Shown: one piece after another, positions 11,534 to 32,771 of the stretch | How the letters are laid out: each line of letters begins with the position of its first letter | How positions within the stretch are numbered: the first letter of the stretch is position 1 | Assembly: GCA_021738725.1 (NCBI GenBank) | Contig: JAIPBE010000012.1 | Coordinates: 18,994-82,993, forward strand | Direction: 5' to 3' | DNA: 64,000 nucleotides | From: Saprospiraceae bacterium | Lineage (GTDB): Bacteria; Bacteroidota; Bacteroidia; Chitinophagales; Saprospiraceae | Program-made: the position numbers and the translations under genes | Notes under the pieces: model-generated | The model's input: the letters and a program-made list of their open reading frames with translations, nothing else | What the model was told of the DNA's origin: nothing | Database searches by the model: none

Positions 11534-11930
11534 GGTTATGAGGTTATGAGGGAAGTTATTGGGTTATTTCGATATTTCGAACTCATGCACCCTTCTTAGG
11601 AAGGGACGAAATAGTGGTAGAGTTAAGAAAGTTTTGAGTGGAGCCGTTAAGAAAAATAATGGATGTGAATTTATATTAGGCATGCTCCGCGAATAGCCCC
11701 AAGGCCTCAGGGCGAATAGCGAAAAATCATTCGTGATAACCTCCCTCCTTCGCTCAAGCTTCGGCAGGCAGGCACCCCTCTCCTTTCCAAGGAGAAGGGA
11801 GCCATACGTTTGGCCCATTACCTTTTACCCTTTACCTATTACCGGCCCACATAAAGCTTGCTGCCCGAGTGGCGACAGCCACTGACGTTCCGAAGCGAAG
11901 GGCGAACGGCGAATGGCGAATGGCGAAAAA
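11534..11930. repeat. intergenic repeat island between convergent kynU and the CHU_C gene
   Basis: gaggttatgaggttatgag after the kynU stop; ccttttaccctttacctattacc and gcgaacggcgaatggcgaatggcgaaaa abutting the opposite stop. Confidence 0.75.
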
Positions 11931-14657
11931 TCATCGCACCAACTCCACCTCCCCGCTGATCTGCTTCGAACTGCCATCTGGCAATACCAGCACCATCTCG
12001 TAGACATAAACCCCTGGATCACACAGCCGACCGCGGAAGGTGCCATCCCATCCCGTTTCATTAGTAAGGCCTGGTGTGGATAGTAGAAGATTGCCCCAGC
12101 GGTCCCATATGGTCAGACGGTCGATAGGATAGGTATGATCCGATGGACTGACCGCCCGCCACACATCATTGATGCCGTCGCCATTCGGACTGAAGGCCGT
12201 AGGGACAAAAACCTGCAACGGATAAATGACCCGGACAACCAGCTCATCAGTGGCAGTACAGCCATTGGCATCCGTCAGGGTGATCTGGTAGACAACGGTG
12301 CTCAAGCCTTCTGCCTCCAGGGTTTCCTGACCAGCCTGATTCAGGCCCTGAGGCGGTGTCCAACTCAGGGTATAAGTTCCTGCATTGCTTTGTATGGTGC
12401 GGGACCCTTTGGCCCCCTCATTGAGGATGAGTTCCGGACCAGCTTCCAACCATACGGCTGGAGGATCTGTGAGCGACCATGTAGCAGTAGCTGTACATCC
12501 GTCCGCATCGATGATGGTATAGGTGTAGGTACCGGCTCCAAGATCCGACAGGGTAAATCCCGGACTGAGGAGGTCCCCTCCCGGCTGGAGCACATAATTC
12601 CCCGCCCCGCCCTGGATGGCTGTGAGGAGTATTTCGCCATCCTGATCCTCTACACAGGACGGGTCAGTGATATCCCACTCTGTTGTGATGGGCGGCAGGA
12701 CAGTGACAAAAATCGTATCGGAGGCTACGCACCCTTCATTGGCTGTCACAGTGACGGCATACGGACCGGTGGCAGTGACGGGAATGGAAGGACCTGTGGC
12801 CCCGGTACTCCACTTGATCTGCGGGTAGGAAGCAATGGTCAGACTACCCGCTTCACCTGCACACAGCACAGTATCTCCAGTGATCTGGAGGAGCGGATTA
12901 GGCAGGACGGTGAGGTCCAGGATATGGACCGTATCACACAGCCCTGCTCCTGGCACCGTGTAGATCCCAGTGGATTGATAGTTCGTACCGTGAAAGAGAA
13001 AACTGGCTCCGGTACAGATCTCGGCAGTTGTATGCAAGGTATCGCCAGCAGTTGTGAAACTGACCTGAATCGTGTCCGAACCTGCACAACCATCCGCATT
13101 GGTGACTTCTACAATGACCTGACCGCTGGTGTTGACATCCCATGTCGATCCACCAGGTGTGCCATTCCAGGCATAGGTGGTATAGATGGCCGGCACGGAG
13201 AGGGTGACGATCTCGCCCTGACAGGCCGTCTGATCGGGCCCTAGATCGGGTGAAGGAAGAGAAAGCAGAGTGATGCTTATGCTAGCGGTATCTGCTGGGC
13301 ATTCAGGAGAGTTCTGGATGACATACTGCCATACACCCGGGCCGTCCAGCACCGGATTGTAGGTGGAACCGCCCTGGGTCAGGCTTGGAGACCAGGTGCC
13401 ACCGGGCTGGGCATCGGGTCCGAGGAAATTATTCAGGTTGATGAGTTTATCTTCAGCACAGAAGATGAGAGAGGTATCCCGACCGGCCTCATTCATTTTG
13501 GGGTCCAGCAACAGGAAGGCTGTGGCGGTATCGCTGCGTTCTTCACCGGCATAGGCGACCACATGGATGGTGCGTACACCGGGAGTGGGGTTGATCAGAT
13601 CATTCTGCCAGAATGCACCCAAAAGTGCCTGAGCAAAGGCGGTATCTGTCGGACTACCCAGAATGGGGGTAAAGGTCAGTCGCTGAGATCCCGATCCTGC
13701 GACACCAATACTATCCGTATCTGAAGCCGTCAAATAATCGCCGGGGCCATCCGGAGGATTCTCCAGCCAGACCACCAGACTGTCCAGTGCATAATCACTA
13801 TATACATTCAGATCGGTATCTCCCACTGCTGCAAAAGCCGGAAGGCAATAGATGGTATCCCGCCAGTCGAGGGGAGGAGCTTGAGCGGAGTCGTTGGTGT
13901 CGAGGTCAATTTCAAGCTGACACGTATAAGTAAGAAATTCGGAAGGAGAAGTAGCTCCTATTTTTCCAAAATCGACTGGACAAACCATACTGTATGTAAA
14001 GTCCTCCATATTCAATTCATAAACACCGCGAGGTGTATAGGAGCCACACAATAGAAAATGCTCATTCTGACAATCATCAACTATTGTTGTTAAGGCTTGT
14101 GTTGTTCCCTTCAAGTCCAAAACAGCGACGATCTTGTTATTTGCTGGATTGTTCAGGTCAATTTCATAGATGATATTCTTGTCAAGTGTATTTAAGTCTC
14201 CCCCTGACAAGTACAGCTTTCCTTTATAAAAAGTAAGATCATGCGTCGGAGAAATATTTGCAGGCAATGGCATCACTTCCGTATGTTGTCCGGTCGTTTT
14301 ATCAAACACGCCCAGAGATCCTGGACGGGCCGAATATAACGTTCCATTTTTATCAGAAACCAATGATGATTGATTTGTTGTCAATATATAGGGCGGAAGT
14401 TTAATATAGGTCTTTGTTCCAACATCATACTTCACAAGGTTGAACGCACATATCAAATACAATTCACCATCAGGAGTAACCGCAACGTCATTAATACCAA
14501 TCAATTCAGGCAGACTATCGATGATTACTGAATCACACCCATTAGATAAGTCAAATACACCTAGCCGTTCACCAGAATCGCAATAGTATATTTGCTGACA
14601 AATGGTTGATTCTACATTAATCAGAAAAATAAAAATTAATATTAAAAATACTCTCAT
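11931..14657 (-). CDS. secreted protein with gliding motility-associated C-terminal (CHU_C, T9SS type B) domain
   Basis: Signal peptide MRVFLILIFIFLINVESTICQ; PKD/Ig-like segments; C-term VFVPTAFSPNGDGINDVWRAV...LTIWDRWGNLLLS...GWDGTFRG...GVYVYEMVLVLPDG. Confidence 0.92.
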   Translation of the reverse strand: MRVFLILIFIFLINVESTICQQIYYCDSGERLGVFDLSNGCDSVIIDSLPELIGINDVAVTPDGELYLICAFNLVKYDVGTKTYIKLPPYILTTNQSSLVSDKNGTLYSARPGSLGVFDKTTGQHTEVMPLPANISPTHDLTFYKGKLYLSGGDLNTLDKNIIYEIDLNNPANNKIVAVLDLKGTTQALTTIVDDCQNEHFLLCGSYTPRGVYELNMEDFTYSMVCPVDFGKIGATSPSEFLTYTCQLEIDLDTNDSAQAPPLDWRDTIYCLPAFAAVGDTDLNVYSDYALDSLVVWLENPPDGPGDYLTASDTDSIGVAGSGSQRLTFTPILGSPTDTAFAQALLGAFWQNDLINPTPGVRTIHVVAYAGEERSDTATAFLLLDPKMNEAGRDTSLIFCAEDKLINLNNFLGPDAQPGGTWSPSLTQGGSTYNPVLDGPGVWQYVIQNSPECPADTASISITLLSLPSPDLGPDQTACQGEIVTLSVPAIYTTYAWNGTPGGSTWDVNTSGQVIVEVTNADGCAGSDTIQVSFTTAGDTLHTTAEICTGASFLFHGTNYQSTGIYTVPGAGLCDTVHILDLTVLPNPLLQITGDTVLCAGEAGSLTIASYPQIKWSTGATGPSIPVTATGPYAVTVTANEGCVASDTIFVTVLPPITTEWDITDPSCVEDQDGEILLTAIQGGAGNYVLQPGGDLLSPGFTLSDLGAGTYTYTIIDADGCTATATWSLTDPPAVWLEAGPELILNEGAKGSRTIQSNAGTYTLSWTPPQGLNQAGQETLEAEGLSTVVYQITLTDANGCTATDELVVRVIYPLQVFVPTAFSPNGDGINDVWRAVSPSDHTYPIDRLTIWDRWGNLLLSTPGLTNETGWDGTFRGRLCDPGVYVYEMVLVLPDGSSKQISGEVELVR

Positions 14658-14706: not shown

Positions 14707-16528
14707 TCATCGCAGATTCAACAACAAAGTTTCAGCCATAACTGAAGTCCGAATTTCACACAAATACATTCCTTTGGACAAAAAAGTCAGATCCAACTCC
14801 TCATTAAGCCTCGAATCGCCAGCAAGTTGGTGGATATATACACTGCGTCCATGTATATCCCGTATGGTGAGGATACCTGATCCTAATGGCTGATCAGAAT
14901 TAATCCAAACCACACCATCGGTCGGATTTGGCCAGATCTGAATTTGTTGCTCGCGTGAAAGATCAGTTTTAATAATAGATTTCCAAGTATAATAGCCTCC
15001 ATTTCGATAGGCACCTGGGGCACCTGGATGCTTGTTTAGGCCAAAGACAACCGGTTGCGCTGCTTCATATACAAGATCGAACTCAAGCCCTTCAATATTC
15101 TGAACTTTGTCAGCACTTCCTTGGTCTAACCACCACAAACCGACCATTTGATCTGAAGTCTGAATGATATTTGTCAGCTCAGTATCATGATGTTGAGTCG
15201 AACGAAACTCCTTCACCCGAAATGGCATTTCAGATTCTAACGCCAGGAAGAACAATTCCAGATCCTCGCCATTTGGCATGTAGATGCGTTGACGGTATTC
15301 ACCTGGAAATATTTCCTGATTATCAGCAAATGTCACTATTTCGTCACCAACGGACGTCGCTGACCTTGATTCCACCTGTGGGTCCCCTGGTGCAAATTGG
15401 TCACTGCATTCGGTACATGTCCCATCCACATCACCCACTTTTATTCCCCAGAAATCTGCCTGGTTGTAATACCCTGGCTCCACGTCTAACCATTCATTGA
15501 AACTTGGAGCATCAATATGACAACCCGGATTTTCATATCCCGAATAAGTCCCAGTTGAGACAAAACGCCAATAGTAAATTGTCCAGGATGGTATGGTTTG
15601 ATTCGCCAATTGTTGTGCAGCAAGGACATCTGAAATGGTCAAATTCCCATCAGGAACCACATCCGCCGCGATAGCTTTCCAAGGTTCAGTCCAGCATCCA
15701 CCTACACCTAAGTCCTTATTAAAAATGTCATAGACATCAGCACTGGTCACCCCGCAAAAGGGGTAATCCCACTTGGATGGCACCACCCGATATTCTTCCT
15801 CTGGTGTAACTGGCCCAGATACATAATTGCCTTTGTCATCTGTTAATGTACTCGAAAGTAAGGGAGTAAGACCAGGTAGGGGATACACCTCCATGGCAGC
15901 ATCAGGCAATCCACTGTTTATGGAATTAATACAGGAAGATCCATGCTTTTGGACCACTCCGGTAATATATGCTGCCGGGAAACAGGCTTCCAGATCTTGA
16001 CACCCTGTTCCAACATCTGCCATACATGGTGGACCGGTCTGGTCTACATAGCGATACTCGCCACTAATGGTATGGGTCAAACAGCTTCCTGCTGATGCAG
16101 TATAATAAACCTTGATCAAGTAGGTAAGGCCAGAAAGATCGGCAGGGCTTGTGGTTGTGAAGCCCTGAATCGAGATAGTGTTTGAGCCAAATACAACTTC
16201 GACCCAAGGGATAAGTTCCAGGATTGGATTAAGGGTTGCCTTGGTCTTGGCCTGGTTAAAAGTAACTAAAGGTGGGTTTGGGTTGAGTTGGATCTTAAAG
16301 TTGATGGCCCGAATATTTTCCATCTCTTCAACATCAACGACTCCAAATACAAGGACCATTTCATGGTCATCATTGACAAAATCATCGTTATCATTTGGAT
16401 TGCTGTCCTCGTCAAGACCGGTCAGGCAAATAGTGGCTGGGGCGTAAGGACACTGTGCCCTTAGCTCAGAGAGAGAGAGAGAGAGAGAAAGCACACAGAA
16501 CAGGCATAAGTAACGTTAAACGTTTCAT
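14707..16528 (-). CDS. T9SS type A sorting-domain protein with cohesin-like and dockerin-like segments; signal peptide out of frame across a (CT)10 tract
   Basis: ATG at 16528 gives MKRLTLLMPVLCAFSLSLSL* and stops at the tract; mature protein SELRAQCPYAP... continues in another frame (ORF 14707..16494). WPNPTDGVVWINSDQPLGSGILTIRDIHGR C-term; GDVDGTC, NLTISDVLAAQQLAN dockerin-like. Confidence 0.85.
16468..16488. repeat. (AG)10 / (CT)10 dinucleotide microsatellite in the signal-peptide coding region
   Basis: Directly read: ctcAGAGAGAGAGAGAGAGAGAGaaagc. Confidence 0.97.
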
Positions 16529-16611
16529 CGGTTTTGGGTTTTTGAGATGAGAAAACTTACAGCCTACAAAATAGGCTACACTATGTTCATTGTCAATAGG
16601 TAGTGTGTTAA

Positions 16612-17066
16612 ATGTTGGTATTGGCGGGCTCAGGCTCAGGCAAACAAGCACCAAAATACAAGCATCAAATTCCAAATAAGCACCAAATTGGAAATTCGAA
16701 TGACCCAAACATGAAATCCGTGCAAAACCGTGATTCTGATAATAAGCAGTGTTCGGCGTTCGGATTTCGGTACATATGTGGCGACAGCCACTCATGTGCT
16801 CAAGCGAAAGGCGAAAAGCCCCGAGGCCTCGGGGGCGAATGGCGATCTGAGTGGAGGAGTCGAGAAGTTGAGAAGTCGAGGAGAAAGGAAAAGAGGTAAA
16901 CGCGCATGCCATTCCAGGCAAGGTCAGTTTGACCCATTACCTTTTACCCTTTACCCTTTACCGGCCCACATAAAGCCTGCTGCCAGAGTGGCACCAGCCA
17001 CTGACGTGCTCAGGCGAAGTGCGAACAGCGAATAGCGAATAGCGAATAGCGAATAGCGAATAGCGA
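16612..17066. repeat. intergenic heptamer-rich repeat island
   Basis: ccttttaccctttaccctttacc; gcgaacagcgaatagcgaatagcgaatagcgaatagcgaatagcgaaaa; CCCCGAGGCCTCGGGG palindrome at 16819-16834. Confidence 0.8.
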
Positions 17067-17098
17067 AAAAAAAGCCCGAACCAATGGTTCGGGGCTTA
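17065..17098 (-). terminator. intrinsic terminator of the T9SS OmpA-like gene
   Basis: Minus strand AAGCCCCGAACCATTGGTTCGGGCTTTTTTTT: near-perfect stem plus T8. Confidence 0.85.
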
Positions 17099-27063: not shown

Positions 27064-28605
27064 TCACTCATGTATCACTACTACCCGGCTCGTTGCCACC
27101 GGCTGCTGATCGGAGAACAGCTGCAAGATATAGGTGCCATTGGGGACCTGCGATGTATCCCAGGTATGTAGGTAGGCATAAGGTGTATAGCGATGCCGGT
27201 GTACTTCCCTGCCCAGAGCATCAACAATGATCAATTCGGTATCCTGCCGACCGTATTCTGACAGAGTAATTTCGATCTGAACGGGGCCACTGGCCGGATT
27301 AGGGTAAATCTTCAGTTCACCTTGCGGGCCAGGCTCGGCCACAGACGTGCTCAGCGTATCGCAGGGGCTGCCCTCCATGGCACCGAGGCGGTAGTTGGGG
27401 TAGTGAACCAGGGAGTTGTGTGTGTACACAGGTAGATCGATCTCGTTGATGGTCAATTCGCATTCATTACCTGGTAACTCGGGGTATTTGAGGACATGCA
27501 GACACAGGCCAGAACCCGTTGGTGCAATGTAAATCCTCCCGTCCGGACCCAGTTGAGCCAGCCCCCGGCCAATATTGCATTTGAATTTTGTTTCACCAAG
27601 CAACTCAAGAGGCGTCAACTTCAGCGTGTCGGCCCAGAGGTCTACCTGGTAGCATGGAGCATTGTTGAGGATATACAGATACCTCCCGGATGGAGAAAAC
27701 TCCATATCCCCGATAGTCCCTGCTCCAGCCACCACAATGGGCTCATCAAAGGCCAGAGTGCGGTAGCTGGTGAAGGTGCCTGAGCAGCGGTCAAAATCAT
27801 ACACCGTCAACGCTGTATCTGTATTGATCCGGGCCATCTGGGTGCCCTGTTGATTCATGACCAGGAATCCAAAGGATCCCGCTGCTGGGATATCTGCCTT
27901 ATATCCCTTTCCCAGAAATTGAATAAATGGTCCTTGAATTCCTTTGTCTGTCAACAAAAAAGAAAAGAACTTATTGGTGTACAATTGCGCCCCGATGATC
28001 CACCAGTCACGCCCATTGGCGTGTTGCGCCACTTCCATATTCTCAAAAGTGTCTTTGACCAGTACCACATTCTTTTCCAATACCTCCCCCAATCCATCCA
28101 TGCCGCCATCGGTCTTGATCTTGCTATATCTTATATCACCTATAAAGGTGGAATACCCCTCAATAAAACTTTCGCCATGTACCAACTCACCATGAATAAG
28201 ATATGACAAATTTAAATTTCCTCCAGGATCTGGCAATGGCACAATAGCATTGGAGGCTGCATAGGACTGAGATTGCTTTTCCCAAATTTCCCCATAATTG
28301 AGGCTGTCTCCGTTCTCCATGATCACACCGGCGGTGTTAAACACGGCCTTACCATTTGAGTAATATTTCAGGTTTCCTTCAGCATCCGACCAGGTAGTGG
28401 AGCCCGTGTTCAGACGGTAACGGCCATGCATAGGAATGGTGTCGAAATCCAAACCAGACTCAGCATGAATAACAGAAATAATTTCAAATAAAGGAAAGGT
28501 ATCGACAATGGTCGCTGCACCCATCACCCAATTGTGATCGTATTTCTGGGCATGAACAGAAATGGCAAATCCTATAAAACCGCATAAGAAGACAATCTTT
28601 TTCAT
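27064..28605 (-). CDS. T9SS type A sorting-domain-containing protein
   Basis: Signal peptide MKKIVFLCGFIGFAISVHAQ; C-term LKIYPNPASGPVQIEITLSEYGRQDTELIIVDALGREVHRHRY...GTYILQL. Confidence 0.92.
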   Translation of the reverse strand: MKKIVFLCGFIGFAISVHAQKYDHNWVMGAATIVDTFPLFEIISVIHAESGLDFDTIPMHGRYRLNTGSTTWSDAEGNLKYYSNGKAVFNTAGVIMENGDSLNYGEIWEKQSQSYAASNAIVPLPDPGGNLNLSYLIHGELVHGESFIEGYSTFIGDIRYSKIKTDGGMDGLGEVLEKNVVLVKDTFENMEVAQHANGRDWWIIGAQLYTNKFFSFLLTDKGIQGPFIQFLGKGYKADIPAAGSFGFLVMNQQGTQMARINTDTALTVYDFDRCSGTFTSYRTLAFDEPIVVAGAGTIGDMEFSPSGRYLYILNNAPCYQVDLWADTLKLTPLELLGETKFKCNIGRGLAQLGPDGRIYIAPTGSGLCLHVLKYPELPGNECELTINEIDLPVYTHNSLVHYPNYRLGAMEGSPCDTLSTSVAEPGPQGELKIYPNPASGPVQIEITLSEYGRQDTELIIVDALGREVHRHRYTPYAYLHTWDTSQVPNGTYILQLFSDQQPVATSRVVVIHE

Positions 28606-28618
28606 ACTCAGAAATTTA

Positions 28619-28650
28619 GAAAAAAGGAGGGGGCGAATTGCCCCCTCCCA
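28619..28650 (-). terminator. intrinsic terminator of the 28662..31817 gene
   Basis: Minus strand GGAGGGGGCAATTCGCCCCCTCCTTTTTT: perfect stem plus T6. Confidence 0.85.
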
Positions 28651-28661
28651 ATAACTGGATT

Positions 28662-31817
<3,156 letters not shown>

Positions 31818-32186
31818 ATATTTAACATTCCAGGGCTATTTCCTATCCTCATTATTGAGGACCAAAAATGAAAAAATCAAACCTGATTTTCAAAGAGTCC
31901 AATTTTTTAGTCCTTCGGCACAAAATTTATAAAGAAATATCACATTCGAAAGATGAAAAACAAGCAAGGAGAATAGTTTCCCCACATCATTCATTTTTAG
32001 GAACCAGGAACCAGGGACCAGGGCCGAGAAAGGTGTTGGGCGTTGGGTATTGGGCGTTGGCTTTACCCCGGGCTCGAAAACGGGGTTATTTCGTTAAGGC
32101 GTTATTGCGTTATTTCGAGGAATGAGGAACCAGGAATGAGGAACCAGGAATGAGGGCCGAGGGATGAGGACCGAGAAAGGTGTTGG

Positions 32187-32665
32187 GCGTTGGGAATTGG
32201 GCGTTGGCTTTACCCCGGCTTCGAAAACGGGGTTATTTCGTTAAGGCGTTATTTCGAGGAATGCTTGCCCGCCGGGACGGGAGGAACCAGGTCCCGGGAG
32301 GAAATATCACGTTGAACTTTAAACTGGCTCCCCGAGACTTCGGGGACGCCTTGAACGTTAAACATTCAAGCTACGAACAGGGGTGCCCAGCAACAGGCTA
32401 GGACAAACCAGGAACTAGGAATGCCTACCCGCGTTGGGAATTGGGCGTTGGCTTTACCCCGGCTTCGAAAACGGGGTTATTTCGTTAAGGCGTTATTTCG
32501 AGGAATGCTTGCCCGCCGGGGCGGGAGGAACCAGGTCCCGGGAGGAAATATCACGTTGAACTTTAAACTGGCTCCCCGAGACTTCGGGGACGCCTTGAAC
32601 GTTAAACATTCAAGCCACGAACAGGGGTGCCCAGCAACAGGCTAGGACAAACCAGGAACTAGGAA
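32187..32665. repeat. two tandem copies (32187-32421 and 32431-32665) of a 235-bp unit
   Basis: gcgttgggaattgggcgttggctttaccccggcttcg...caacaggctaggacaaaccaggaactaggaa repeated with very few substitutions. Confidence 0.95.
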
Positions 32666-32771
32666 CGCAGGAACAAGGAACAAAGGAATGGCAGCTCGCT
32701 GAGGCGGAATGAGTCAAGGGGTCGAGGCTTGCCCGCCGAAGCTTTAGCGTAGGAGGGAGTGGAGGAGAAAA

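Follow-up and report, generated by a model that had tools for sequence, protein, structure and literature searches.

A (CT)10 tract within the signal-peptide codons of a secreted-protein gene from a Saprospiraceae bacterium is very probably a simple-sequence contingency locus, and one of a genomic set of such loci. The contingency-locus interpretation had been proposed in a sequence-only reading and is supported by homologues that are in phase (ON) with 8 and 12 units, by dN/dS values of 0.14-0.16 and by further tracts in the genome and the genus. The window, by which we mean the whole stretch of 64,000 nucleotides that was analysed, contains the following elements of the locus.

14707-16467, minus strand: frame of the secreted protein (ELRAQC...), with 586 codons and a stop codon; it is not in phase with the ATG in the assembly.
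14743-14937, minus strand: T9SS C-terminal sorting domain Por_Secre_tail (PF18962), E-value 1.2e-7, 32.3 bits against a cut-off of 27.
16466-16528, minus strand: short OFF-state frame from the ATG, with the n-region and hydrophobic core of a signal peptide, then TGA.
16468-16488, minus strand: (TC)10T tract, the proposed slippage switch, a perfect repeat of 21 nt; OFF with 10 CT units, ON with 8 or 11.
16568-16596, minus strand: candidate promoter TTGACA-N17-TATTTT.

On the minus strand, the ATG at 16528 opens MKRLTLLMPVLCAFSLSLSL and reaches a TGA ending at 16466 after 20 codons; this stop is located at the end of the (TC)10T run, which sits within the signal-peptide codons. The tract is a perfect short tandem repeat close to the start of the coding region, and its unit is not a multiple of three. 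When tract lengths of 6-13 units were simulated, changes in unit count shifted the downstream frame into and out of phase, and the long protein was obtained with 8 (605 aa) and 11 units (607 aa) only. The frame logic of the sequence-only reading, in which ten units split the signal peptide from the mature frame and 8 or 11 units would restore the fusion, is exact. With 11 units, the ATG at 16528 opens MKRLTLLMPVLCAFSLSLSLSELRAQC..., a signal peptide fused to the mature protein. At the assembled length, the mature frame offers one start only, the GTG at 16494, and the resulting MLSLSLSLSELRAQ lacks a charged n-region. Signal peptides were assigned here from hydropathy and charge and not by SignalP. 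The candidate promoter is found at the matching position in all three copies of the cargo gene, the one in the window and the two homologues in G002, a genome of the same genus.

The protein behind the tract displays the features of a T9SS cargo, with a signal peptide (in the ON frame only, by hydropathy and charge), the PF18962 tail and a genome that encodes the T9SS component SprA. The tail is the only domain of this protein to score over a curated cut-off, and the match to TIGR04183 (22.9 against a cut-off of 23) falls 0.1 bit short. The T9SS part of the earlier description, a T9SS-exported cohesin/dockerin-like protein, therefore holds, but searches of Pfam, NCBIfam and PDB sequences gave no match to support the cohesin/dockerin label; the short motifs DVxPDGxLTxxDV and GDVDG were spotted by eye only. 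A profile search of the PDB returned nothing useful for this protein and its AlphaFold model, with a pLDDT of 34, was unusable.

A (CT)10 run was found in none of 100 dinucleotide shuffles of the window. The repeat census consisted of a genome sample of ∼424 kb together with pattern searches of the genome. In the sample, CT runs of 4 units occurred nine times and of 5 units twice, followed only by runs of 10.5, 15.5 and 17 units, the stretches with the last two having been put into the sample on purpose as tract holders. Across the whole genome (4.18 Mb, 109 contigs), CT runs of at least 8 units are present in three places, and all three fall within signal peptides, in genes that also encode a T9SS tail. 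Not every such leader here has this design: the T9SS or secreted genes at 11931-14657 and 27064-28665, among others in the window, have ordinary signal peptides with no tract. Most poly-C/G tracts of 9-10 nt have no relation to signal peptides, and for this reason chiefly the longer ones were counted as switches. The window also contains intergenic arrays of 7-nt units (GCGAATA, ACCCTTT and GAGGAAT types) and a 244-bp tandem duplication (11895-11927, 16932-17067 and 32117-32688), and similar 7-mer arrays occur elsewhere in the genome.

Seven loci make up the set in this genome, three with (CT)n and one each with (ACAG)n, (TTTTGTTC)n, poly-C and poly-G, and each of them opens a secreted-protein or lipoprotein gene. 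The ACAG locus is also located in the window.

28662-31724, minus strand: 1020-aa T9SS cargo behind the ACAG tract, related to G004:C114, whose tract is poly-C.
31612-31658, minus strand: second switch-like tract, which reads (CTGT)11.75 on the plus strand and (ACAG)11 in the coding direction and lies between the start codon and the signal peptide; it is ON with its 11 units, as it would be with 8 or 14.

The two remaining CT loci are C20, with 17 units (OFF, ON at 15 or 18) ahead of a 1104-aa subtilase with a beta-helix and a T9SS tail, and C50, with 15 units (OFF, ON at 14 or 17) ahead of a protein of 872-874 aa with a T9SS tail. C108, a paralogue of the ACAG-tract gene, has four copies of the octamer within its signal peptide (OFF, ON at 3 or 6), C18 has a poly-C17 at the same position in a secreted-protein gene (OFF) and C48 a poly-G12 in a lipoprotein leader (OFF). 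As assembled, only the ACAG locus is ON and the other six are OFF. Leaders similar to the ACAG one (window 31612-31724; L269 and L270; GCGAGCxC followed by CAGA repeats) are found ahead of different secreted proteins in G000, G001 and G002; from these sequences it looks as if a 5' switch may move between genes. A hairpin, CCTCATTnTTnAGGAC, lies near some of the loci and was dropped as a candidate element, since most of its copies across the genus lie elsewhere, and CTATTGACA, found upstream of several of them, shows no genome-wide enrichment (4 observed against 3.2 expected).

Comparison with relatives revealed that tract length varies among homologues while the frame is conserved. The two homologues of the window cargo in G002 are 87% and 81% identical to it, and their tracts occupy the same site but have 8 and 12 CT units. 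These two copies are ON, whereas the window copy, with 10, is OFF. Relatives all fixed at one length, which the sequence-only reading had named as evidence against itself, are thus not what was found. G004 has two near-identical paralogous leaders, one with C12 and ON, the other with C13 and OFF, the poly-G tract of the lipoprotein is G12 in this genome and G16 in the G002 orthologue, and the orthologues in G097 and G187 have 13 and 19 CT units. The type of repeat differs as well. The G004:C114 gene is 24% identical to the ACAG gene of the window across 858 aa, most of its length, and given this relationship a single position has poly-C in one species, ACAG in another and the octamer in a paralogue. 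That a switch should be renewed again and again at one site is difficult to account for unless it is selected for.

CT tracts of at least 8 units were found in 11 of 199 genomes of the family. Fourteen of the 19 tracts are sense-oriented, at the signal-peptide position and ahead of long frames; low-complexity or unrelated sequence holds the other five, which come from three genomes. By our own estimate, random placement would put roughly 3-6% of tracts at signal peptides, corresponding to a P of about 1e-13 or less. In a scan of the phylum the CT design was found in 2 of 398 genomes; within the phylum it is sporadic and not general.

The OFF genes do not seem to be dead, and their frames appear to be under purifying selection. 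The dN/dS of the window cargo is 0.14 against G002:C29 and 0.16 against G002:C211, and pairs in which both members are OFF give similar values, with the G097 and G187 genes (13 and 19 units) at 0.19 and the two poly-G lipoprotein genes at 0.20. The combination of a gene that is OFF in the assembly with purifying selection on its frame is what is expected of a contingency locus. It also bears on the possibility that the frameshift in the tract is a single permanent lesion in genes that are being lost, with slippage being non-adaptive. Six of the seven loci being OFF fits such decay, but the frames behind the tracts, of 285 to 1072 codons, have no further lesion, their dN/dS is 0.14-0.20 even between OFF copies, in-phase homologues exist and the tracts are concentrated at signal peptides instead of being scattered over the genes; we consider decay very unlikely. 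Length errors are a more serious concern, as the gene could always be ON, with 8 or 11 units, and the assembled 10 be the product of stutter in a repeat that encodes Leu-Ser, a composition suited to the core of a signal peptide. The genomes analysed are apparently metagenome drafts (109 contigs in this case), a kind of assembly in which repeats can be miscounted, library amplification can slip repeat counts, and the record that is apparently G002:C211 is labelled with a coverage of 1.05. Yet the tract, at 21 nt, is much below read length and the homologues are apart by several units rather than one (8, 10 and 12; 13 and 19). Coding for Leu-Ser does not need perfect repeats of 10-17 units, and it does not account for tracts of the ACAG, octamer or poly-C/G type in the same position. 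Stutter is, in our assessment, an unlikely source of the pattern.

The OFF state could also be leaky, with the GTG at 16494 or ribosomal frameshifting on the tract still yielding protein, in which case its level would be tuned and not switched. The GTG is available in the mature frame, and leakiness would make an excess of OFF lengths tolerable. Such an excess is seen more widely, in that 7 of 47 signal-peptide-like CT loci from many phyla (L036-L176) are ON, which is below one third (P 0.004), in a set whose loci are not all independent and which was not designed for a test of the ON fraction. This deficit of ON phases is not predicted by simple random switching. However, the GTG product has no charged n-region, other CT loci have no in-frame start or merely a weak one and, to our knowledge, CT runs are not classical frameshift sites. 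Leaky expression is thus the least likely of the alternatives and, in our view, extremely improbable.

We propose that the tract acts as a contingency locus in which replication slippage would add or remove CT units. Only lengths of 2 modulo 3 (8, 11, 14) would bring the secreted protein into frame with the start codon and charged n-region, and the remaining two phases would terminate after ∼20 codons with no exported protein. MutS-family proteins are present in the genome, hence a repair defect is not the explanation for tract instability. Slippage, its reversibility and the loss of secretion in the OFF state are read across from two known systems. The CT-repeat on/off switch in the signal-peptide codons of Helicobacter pylori oipA (PMC10564699) resembles the window locus in dinucleotide, signal-peptide position, frame logic and outer-surface protein; it belongs to another phylum and to a pathogen, with no T9SS, and switching is documented there but inferred here. 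No gene homology between the two was seen or is claimed. Neisseria opa genes carry CTCTT repeats in their leader-peptide codons (PMC3960869), and are alike in being a multi-gene surface-protein family with a coding repeat of its own in each leader, whereas in opa a pentamer is the single repeat type throughout and related genes here have mono-, di-, tetra- or octanucleotide tracts. The phase variation described for Bacteroidales, in the same phylum and likewise giving heterogeneous surfaces within a clonal population, relies on invertible promoters and segments (PMC12632263); this is site-specific DNA inversion, unlike slippage in coding repeats, and the word 'slipped' is absent from that review.

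The type of switch is therefore known, as slipped-strand contingency loci, and oipA is almost identical in design. What is new, as far as we have found, is the setting, namely T9SS cargo, an apparently environmental Bacteroidota lineage and several repeat chemistries on related genes. A literature search that reached a minority of subscription journals, and so is weak evidence, found no paper combining Saprospiraceae and phase variation; within the same coverage and judged by title and abstract, none of the papers retrieved on T9SS together with phase variation appears to describe such a switch.

To judge from signal-peptide CT tracts in Verrucomicrobia and further phyla, switches of this kind may be more widespread than the literature on pathogens would indicate. 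Recurrent secreted-protein families of Verrucomicrobia/Kiritimatiellae (L095, L096, L108, L120, L143) have 13-34 CT units in the signal peptide. In G602, three leaders starting with MKTKT (L174, L176, L177) have CT tracts ahead of lipoprotein-like sequences, and a fourth of this kind, L083, is in a record titled Cryomorphaceae. At L053, L067 and L153, one of them in a record titled Saccharibacteria, 11-14 CT units lie just upstream of type IV prepilin-like sequences (GFTIVELLVVIVVIGILAAITIV), which are possible phase-variable pilins. One small conserved protein (SILxxIKEGYLxWMxIxPHIPK...) is opened by 10-13 CT units in three genomes, two of them titled Daviesbacteria (L054, L107, L112); it is in phase in one (11 units) and out of phase in the other two.

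The products behind the tracts include subtilases, at C20 and in another genus at G097:C72 (CT tract; 28% identical over 407 aa), reprolysin-like or other metzincin-type proteases in G083, G187, G192 and two genes of G002:C7, beta-propeller and beta-helix proteins and lipoproteins. Such secreted proteases and surface fibres suggest that exoenzyme production may be randomly shared, or that the cells may escape from phages or grazers. Together, the seven loci would give a clonal population with varied combinations of surface and secreted proteins, and we infer that the benefit would be escape from phages or grazers, or the shedding of costly exoenzymes. Switched genes appear truncated in assemblies, and gene callers and proteomics searches can miss them as a result. 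A survey found that Bacteroidetes strongly avoid simple repeats and cites long repeats as correlating with dependence on a eukaryotic host (PMC4060949). Against this background, one would not expect T9SS cargo of an apparently environmental lineage to be under several slippage switches. We are evenly divided on the broadest reading, in which an environmental Bacteroidota lineage carries slippage switches at multiple loci, placed at the signal peptides of proteases, beta-helix proteins and lipoproteins that the T9SS exports, with different repeat chemistries renewing the same site and most loci OFF at any time, and in which the secretion of whole enzymes, and not of antigens only, would be randomly shared out in the population. 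With this finding it becomes testable whether phages, grazers or the expense of exoenzymes that benefit all cells, and not an immune system, can be the force behind surface switching.
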